From: Campylobacterales bacterium
Lineage (GTDB): Bacteria > Campylobacterota > Campylobacteria > Campylobacterales > QNZT01
Length of the DNA stretch: 39,540 nucleotides
Direction of reading: 5' to 3'
NCBI GenBank assembly: GCA_024278835.1
Contig: JAJRSK010000046.1
Location: forward strand, 1 to 39,540
A program made the position numbers and the translations under genes. Of this stretch, positions 33,494-34,673 are shown piece after piece; positions within the stretch are counted from its first letter, which is position 1; each line of letters begins with the position of its first letter. The notes below the pieces were generated by a model. The model saw nothing but the letters and a program-made list of their open reading frames with translations, was not told where the DNA came from and did not search any database.

Positions 33494-34306
33494 ATGGTTG
33501 AAGAATTAGTTGTTTATCCCGACAAAAGAATAGAAATCCCCTCACCTGATGTGAGAAAGTTTGATGAAACCCTAGCCCAAATCATCATCAATTTAAAAGA
33601 CACTATCGAGCATCATAATGCTGAAGGTTTAGCGGCAATGCAGTGCGCTATCCCTGCTGCTGTAGTCGTAATCAAAAAAGAAGATGGTTCTTATTTGGAA
33701 CTTATTAATCCTCGTATCTTAAAAAGTGAAGGGAAAGTTGCTTCTATTGAAACCACACTCTATCTTCCTGGCGTCACAGAAACCGTACCCCGTTATGAAA
33801 AAATAAAACTCATCTATCAAGATGCCAAGGGAGCACAACACTCCATGGATGTAGGTGGTAAACTATCACTTTTAATACAACGAAAAGTTGACTATATCTA
33901 TGGAGGGAGTTTTGCCACTAAGCTAGCAGATACAAAAAAGAAGAAAATTTCTAAAGTAATGTCAAACAATGGTATTGATGGTTCTTTAGAAGCTTGTCCA
34001 ATAGAACCTATGAAAAAAGATTATCTATCCTCTTTTATGATTAAGTTACTCCTATTTTCGCTTATCATGCTAGTAGCTGGATTTTTTGTTTCTCAGGAGA
34101 CAAAAGAAACACTTTATACCATCAATACCTACATCTATATCGCAATGATACCCTTTATCATAGGATACTATTTTCTTGGTCTTTCTGACTCTAAAAAATT
34201 TAGTGCTTGCACGTCCTGTCAGATAGGTAACCTTTTGGGTGTGATGGCTAAGTTTTCTATCTTTACCCTCATACTTTTTTTAGCTTCTAAGTTTTTGTTG
34301 ACATAA
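33494..34306 (+). CDS. Catalytically dead peptide-deformylase-like domain fused to a membrane domain
   Basis: A 270-residue protein. Residues about 1-150 align with peptide deformylase: AEGLAAMQ (43-50) for the GxGLAAxQ motif, INPRILKSEG, then ETTLYLPG where active enzymes have EGCLSIP, and QRKVDYIYG (129-137) where they have QHExDHLxG. The metal-binding Cys, both His and the catalytic Glu are thus all replaced (Thr88, Arg130, Tyr134, Lys131). After a linker come three hydrophobic helices (about 181-200, 211-231, 251-269) with a small Cys pair (ACTSC). It cannot be a standard deformylase; a binding or scaffold role is possible. Confidence 0.82.
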   Translation: MVEELVVYPDKRIEIPSPDVRKFDETLAQIIINLKDTIEHHNAEGLAAMQCAIPAAVVVIKKEDGSYLELINPRILKSEGKVASIETTLYLPGVTETVPRYEKIKLIYQDAKGAQHSMDVGGKLSLLIQRKVDYIYGGSFATKLADTKKKKISKVMSNNGIDGSLEACPIEPMKKDYLSSFMIKLLLFSLIMLVAGFFVSQETKETLYTINTYIYIAMIPFIIGYYFLGLSDSKKFSACTSCQIGNLLGVMAKFSIFTLILFLASKFLLT

Positions 34307-34673
34307 ACCCTCTGAAAAATTCCCGATAATTATCGAGAATTTTTCCTATTTTACCACCTTCACATAAAAAGACTAACGTCGCTTCCATTGTAAATATCAG
34401 ATCATTTCCACGTTTTATCTCATGATATATGATAAAAGAGGCATTTTTTAACTTCTTGATTTCAGAACTTACCTCTAACATATCCCCAAGTTTTGAGTAG
34501 GCAACAAAATCACAAGAGATATGCTTTAAGGCAAAGTGACAACCATCCACTGAGGGAGACATCTCCGCTTGAAAAAAAAGCTCACTTCTAGTCATCTCAC
34601 AAAAATCAAGATAGTTAGAGTGATAGGTAATCCCACCACAATCTGTGTGCTTATAATAGATACGTATATTCAC
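34287..34673 (-). CDS. YbgC-type acyl-CoA thioesterase
   Basis: A 128-residue hotdog-fold thioesterase. The start IRIYYKHTDCGGITYHSNYLDF matches the YbgC/4-hydroxybenzoyl-CoA thioesterase signature with the catalytic Asp in HTDCGG. Members of this family act on acyl-CoA or acyl-ACP, in some bacteria near tol-pal or phospholipid enzymes. Its last 20 bases overlap the plus-strand PDF-like gene. Confidence 0.88.
   Translation of the reverse strand: MNIRIYYKHTDCGGITYHSNYLDFCEMTRSELFFQAEMSPSVDGCHFALKHISCDFVAYSKLGDMLEVSSEIKKLKNASFIIYHEIKRGNDLIFTMEATLVFLCEGGKIGKILDNYREFFRGFMSTKT
34315..34344. terminator. Bidirectional terminator-like hairpin
   Basis: AAAAATTC and GAATTTTT flank the palindrome CGATAATTATCG with a single C/A mismatch, giving a hairpin with A-tract on one side and T-tract on the other. 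It stands nine bases after the stop of the PDF-like gene, as expected for its terminator, but lies within the C-terminal codons of the thioesterase gene on the other strand. Confidence 0.6.

Follow-up and report, generated by a model that had tools for sequence, protein, structure and literature searches.

The ORF at positions 33494-34306 of the forward strand of the window, i.e., the complete 39,540-nucleotide stretch of Campylobacterales DNA analysed here, encodes a 270-residue protein which, we conclude with moderate confidence, belongs to a conserved family of Campylobacterales membrane pseudoenzymes that serve as accessory proteins to a sulfide oxidation module of the sulfide:quinone oxidoreductase (SQR)-like type. 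The protein, here termed pseudo-PDF, joins a peptide deformylase (PDF)-like head to a cysteine-containing membrane part. The ORF, coordinates and residue numbering given in an earlier sequence-only reading of this DNA all proved exact upon re-examination and are retained. The features considered are listed in Table 1.

Table 1. Position of the pseudo-PDF gene, its parts and related features. Unless a locus is given, positions are those of the window.
Feature	Position	Strand	Basis or remark
Whole gene: pseudo-PDF/three-TM/three-Cys protein, 270 residues	33494..34306	+	
PDF-like domain, residues 3-155	33500..33958	+	Pfam PF01327, PDB sequence matches, Foldseek
Motif I remnant GLAAMQ, residues 45-50	33626..33643	+	Gln50 in 76/82 homologues
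Motif II position: ETTLY for EGCLS; Cys ligand replaced by Thr88	33749..33763	+	Cys in 0/82
Motif III position: QRKVDY for QHExDH (R130, K131, Y134)	33878..33895	+	Sequence alignments
Cys168 of CP motif, before TM helix 1; nearly invariant	33995..33997	+	81/82
Predicted TM helix 1, about residues 178-196	34025..34081	+	Family hydropathy; AF2 helix 177-195
Predicted TM helix 2, about residues 211-229	34124..34180	+	Family hydropathy
Cys239 and Cys242 of CTSCQIGN, loop between TM helices 2 and 3; invariant	34208..34219	+	82/82
Predicted TM helix 3, about residues 250-268	34241..34297	+	Family hydropathy
Hairpin directly 3' of the stop codon, candidate terminator	34314..34345	+	z -5.5; within convergent ORF
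Small peptide gene on contig C48 of the genome that contains the window	L115:5567-5752		
Pseudo-PDF in Sulfurovum mangrovi ST1-3, split into two annotated pieces	L135:8001-8816		

That the head adopts the PDF fold had been proposed as a point for structure prediction, and was borne out. Residues 3-149 matched Pfam family PF01327 (peptide deformylase) with an E-value of 1e-28, far over the cut-off, and such a match was obtained for each of the family members tested (58/58). The best PDB sequence matches of the window protein were all PDFs (4wxk, 3e-18). When an AF2 model, of modest quality (pLDDT 67) and built from five sequences, was used as a Foldseek query, the top matches were likewise PDFs only (best match 2ew7, E 1.2e-8); modeling of the head alone brought no improvement (pLDDT 63 vs. 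67 in the first run). With 75.5 bits, the window protein scored below the equivalog cut-off of NCBIfam TIGR00079 (103.95).

Alignment to PDFs in the PDB placed T88 at the position of the Cys ligand, R130 and Y134 at those of the first and second His and K131 at that of the catalytic Glu, in agreement with the earlier claim that all of the metal ligands and the catalytic Glu have been replaced. When 82 full-length homologues from Campylobacterales were aligned, the motif III Glu and second His were found in none (0/82 each) and the first His in three (3/82). The Gln of motif I was kept in 76, with the first Gly of that motif being frequently replaced by Ala. Conservation across the family extends to the replacement motif, QRK-I/L-DY, and to Gln50, Glu86, Arg100 and Asp133, with T/R/K/Y being the commonest state over most of the tree and QQF, QMF, HQY or DRKM appearing in subclades. 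By the known mechanism, the classic PDF reaction would be impossible for a protein of this sequence. It is, moreover, very unlikely that the head is still an enzyme, be it one of new chemistry or one with weak deformylase activity that dispenses with the classic ligands. The conservation of the replacement residues and of Gln50, Glu86, Arg100 and Asp133 would be in keeping with such activity, as would Trypanosoma brucei type 3 PDFs with changed motifs, cited as active in PMC12690207, but the ligands have all been lost, along with the Glu, and the drift of the replacements between subclades is more reminiscent of a binding site than of a catalytic one.

The genome that contains the window also carries a separate and intact def gene, with motifs EGCLS and QHEMDH, adjoining clpP. 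The second, active-type def raised as a point to be checked is thus present, ruling out the pseudo-PDF as the sole def of this genome. In a profile search of 397 genomes, the two types of protein were cleanly separated, with pseudo-PDFs scoring at least 260 bits and def products at most 147 bits among the matches listed. Likewise, in a tree that covered pseudo-PDFs and the def copies of related genomes, the pseudo-PDFs formed one clade apart from def (SH-aLRT 100). In Escherichia coli PDF, the C-terminal region is described in PMC5591237 as the key part for interaction with the ribosome. The median net charge of the C-terminal helix in the pseudo-PDF family was +1 (+3 in the window copy), as opposed to +8 in real PDFs. 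Judging from these predicted charges, the basic ribosome-binding helix is lost in the family.

The full-length protein occurs in the majority of genomes from the GTDB family to which the window belongs and spans eight Campylobacterales families, while the profile search showed many other families of this order to be without it. As compared to the nearest relative (79% identical), dN was 0.15 and dS was saturated. The pseudo-PDF is under strong purifying selection and is conserved well beyond a single strain, which supports the membrane-bound pseudo-deformylase of the sequence-only reading. Strain-specific decay was ruled out by the wide distribution of homologues, by the conserved replacement motif and by these substitution rates. 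A search for viral relatives of the pseudo-PDF found none. Among the matches listed from plasmid records, only that in Sulfurovum mangrovi covered most of the protein, with the others being limited to the deformylase part. The Sulfurovum mangrovi 'plasmid' record also carries rpsI and rplM and may, as such, be chromosomal.

As to the C-terminal part of the protein, family-averaged hydropathy revealed three conserved hydrophobic segments, in line with the proposed fusion to three transmembrane (TM) helices. A point absent from the earlier reading is that this membrane part contains three conserved cysteines (Cys168, Cys239 and Cys242), found together in 81 of the 82 members. Conserved positions within the C-terminal 100 residues comprise CP, D176, E232 and C-x-S-C-Q-x-G-N. 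The distribution of charges, read according to the positive-inside rule, would orient the head, along with all three cysteines, toward the cytoplasm. When the C-terminal domain was compared to Pfam, weak and scattered matches alone were obtained (e.g., FeoB_associated in 6/58), and a PDB search with the same domain returned a single non-significant match and no family.

Examination of the neighborhood of pseudo-PDF genes revealed an SQR-like gene directly upstream and on the same strand in approximately 50 of the 64 loci considered, with a gene for a small membrane peptide lying between the two in at least 48. The resulting cassette, seen across many sulfur-oxidizing Campylobacterota, has the order SQR, small peptide, pseudo-PDF, with median gaps of 21 and 58 bp. 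Although recognized only generically by Pfam and NCBIfam, the cassette flavoprotein matches solved SQRs at 3e-41, and each of the three SQR positions is occupied by a cysteine in every cassette flavoprotein examined (51/51); based on alignment with the Acidithiobacillus ferrooxidans enzyme and on general knowledge, we take these cysteines to be catalytic. The small peptide, mostly of 52-60 residues (48-76 overall) and of the pattern RtC-iwQfiRFi-IN-KM-VV-KSH, yielded no Pfam or NCBIfam match. Almost all of the SQR-like genes of this kind examined in Campylobacterales are followed directly by a gene for such a peptide (RTC-IWQFIRF-INIKM-VV-KSH), with or without a pseudo-PDF, and the peptide was also seen in the cassettes of loci L035, L036 and L085. 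Antisense ORFs detected in the SQR gap (cluster c9) were rejected, having turned out to be shadows of the gene for the small peptide. In Sulfurovum mangrovi (NZ_CP087125), the members of the cassette are annotated as an FAD-dependent oxidoreductase, a hypothetical protein and, in two pieces, a peptide deformylase.

When 299 genomes were considered, 91 contained a full-length pseudo-PDF together with SQR, 65 contained SQR alone, 143 contained neither and none contained a full-length pseudo-PDF alone, a co-occurrence that is confounded by phylogeny, such that shared ancestry inflates its Fisher p-value. The physical linkage of the genes is evidence that is independent of this co-occurrence. The pseudo-PDF is likely associated with SQR. 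The shared cassette points toward sulfide oxidation, as opposed to the maturation of proteins, as the process in which it acts.

These findings bear on the role assigned in the sequence-only reading, namely that of a receptor for nascent chains or ribosomes, in which the dead head would bind chains beginning with N-formyl-Met at the membrane in the service of insertion or quality control. Retention of the PDF scaffold and of the motif I Gln, along with three TM helices and a head that would face the cytoplasm according to charge, is what such a receptor would call for. The pseudo-PDF is, however, confined to SQR-bearing genomes (91/91), is usually found in a cassette with SQR, is missing from many Campylobacterales families and no longer has the basic ribosome-binding helix. 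Given the loss of this tail and the association with SQR, a general role in nascent chain handling is unlikely, and the earlier assignment is not upheld, although the head may still bind peptides.

The linkage to SQR is not without exceptions. The window copy and those of its close relatives are found between recR and a thioesterase-like gene, rather than beside SQR, with SQR and the small peptide being encoded on another contig of the window's genome. Many genomes encode SQR and the small peptide but no pseudo-PDF, such that the latter is not essential to SQR. In genome G039, no SQR was found, and part of the C-terminal region is present as a fragment at the edge of a contig. Finally, in genome G149, SQR and the small peptide are followed by a 98-residue CxxC membrane protein with no PDF part (L142:4551-4847). 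This stand-alone domain is a weak (E 7e-7) and divergent match in which the first cysteine is missing, yet its existence suggests that the membrane part may be the more basic partner.

The order of the three genes could also be read as pointing to a dedicated assembly factor or chaperone, one that would recognize the N-terminus of either SQR or the small peptide through its head and position these proteins at the membrane. The PDF fold naturally binds N-termini, which would suit this role. Such a protein is nonetheless rather unlikely, since SQR and the small peptide are found without a pseudo-PDF in many genomes, and since the three conserved cysteines and the headless form of G149 would be left unexplained.

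Several genomes contain two pseudo-PDF copies. Some copies (L061, L095 and L037, and L067, L069, L104 and L098) are found beside RpoN-like or near AhpD-like or MerR-like genes and not SQR. The adjacency of some paralogues to an AhpD-like gene, together with three nearly invariant cysteines on one predicted side of the membrane, would fit a protein that senses redox state or metals, or one that transfers electrons, with a metal or cluster held by the cysteines and only a loose functional connection to SQR. This we consider most improbable in light of the strong linkage to one type of SQR and the lack of likeness to known metal or cluster domains in Pfam and the PDB.

In the window, the pseudo-PDF gene is flanked by recR, which is divergent from it, and by a thioesterase-like ORF that is convergent with it (names that we assign from general knowledge). 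Both lie on the opposite strand, and the pseudo-PDF gene is monocistronic, as proposed. The gene had also been proposed to have its own terminator. A strong, AT-rich hairpin (-11.5 kcal/mol, z -5.5) does follow the stop codon, but was not called in a terminator scan of the window, with the terminator consensus not being matched, and overlaps the convergent ORF. Its assignment as the terminator of the pseudo-PDF gene is thus only plausible. This palindrome falls within the 3' end of that ORF (34287-34673), with z scores of -5.5 on one strand and -6.5 on the other.

In the favored reading, that of an SQR accessory, the cysteine-containing membrane module would sit beside SQR and handle its sulfur product or redox state, possibly by relaying persulfide or by forming a redox or metal site. 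The dead head would bind or dock a partner or ligand, be it SQR, the small peptide or a small anion. In a more specific and speculative version, possible although not probable, a deformylase has become a non-catalytic membrane subunit of a sulfide-oxidizing complex. Its emptied site (R, K, T and Y) would bind either a partner peptide or a sulfur species, and the three cysteines at the membrane face would pass on sulfane sulfur from SQR. The sulfur relay by the cysteine module is just as speculative. If true, Campylobacterota would possess a dedicated route for sulfur hand-off. The pseudo-PDFs comprise a widely conserved and testable pseudoenzyme family, the linkage to SQR offers a concrete route to their role in Campylobacterota sulfide oxidation and would be a case of a housekeeping N-terminal processing enzyme being recruited to energy metabolism, and the name 'peptide deformylase', as used in the annotated Sulfurovum mangrovi record, would mislead functional annotation.

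With respect to known systems, we know of no described SQR cassette that includes a PDF-like membrane protein and a peptide of 48-76 residues, based on a limited literature search. Similarly, a partial search of the literature on pseudo-PDFs and deformylase-like proteins did not find a membrane-fused, SQR-linked family. Deformylase went unmentioned in the SQR papers examined, including PMC4584964, according to which a number of questions about the function of SQR, and about its intermediates, are unresolved in Campylobacterota. The pseudo-PDF shares with SQR cassettes a gene neighbor, i.e., a flavoprotein with matches among SQR structures and with the three cysteines retained, but is itself not an SQR.

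Altered catalytic motifs also define the type 3 PDFs, namely the accessory PDFs of Staphylococcus aureus and Streptococcus pneumoniae and those of trypanosomatids, some of which are reported to be inactive (PMC12690207 and PMC5591237). An inactive PDF as such is, therefore, not new. The pseudo-PDFs share with this group substitutions in conserved motifs but differ in that the motif II and III residues have been replaced throughout the family (one His being kept in 3/82) by a replacement motif that is itself conserved; the passages of PMC12690207 and PMC5591237 that were examined make no mention of membrane fusion or SQR linkage for type 3 PDFs. Def (PF01327), which includes the closest PDB matches, has in common with the pseudo-PDF the fold, the domain length, the motif I Gln, the motif II Glu, the motif III Asp and Arg100. 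The pseudo-PDF differs from Def in having neither the metal ligands, the catalytic Glu nor the basic ribosome-binding tail, in being fused to a three-TM, three-cysteine domain and in belonging to a clade separate from that of the genome's own def.
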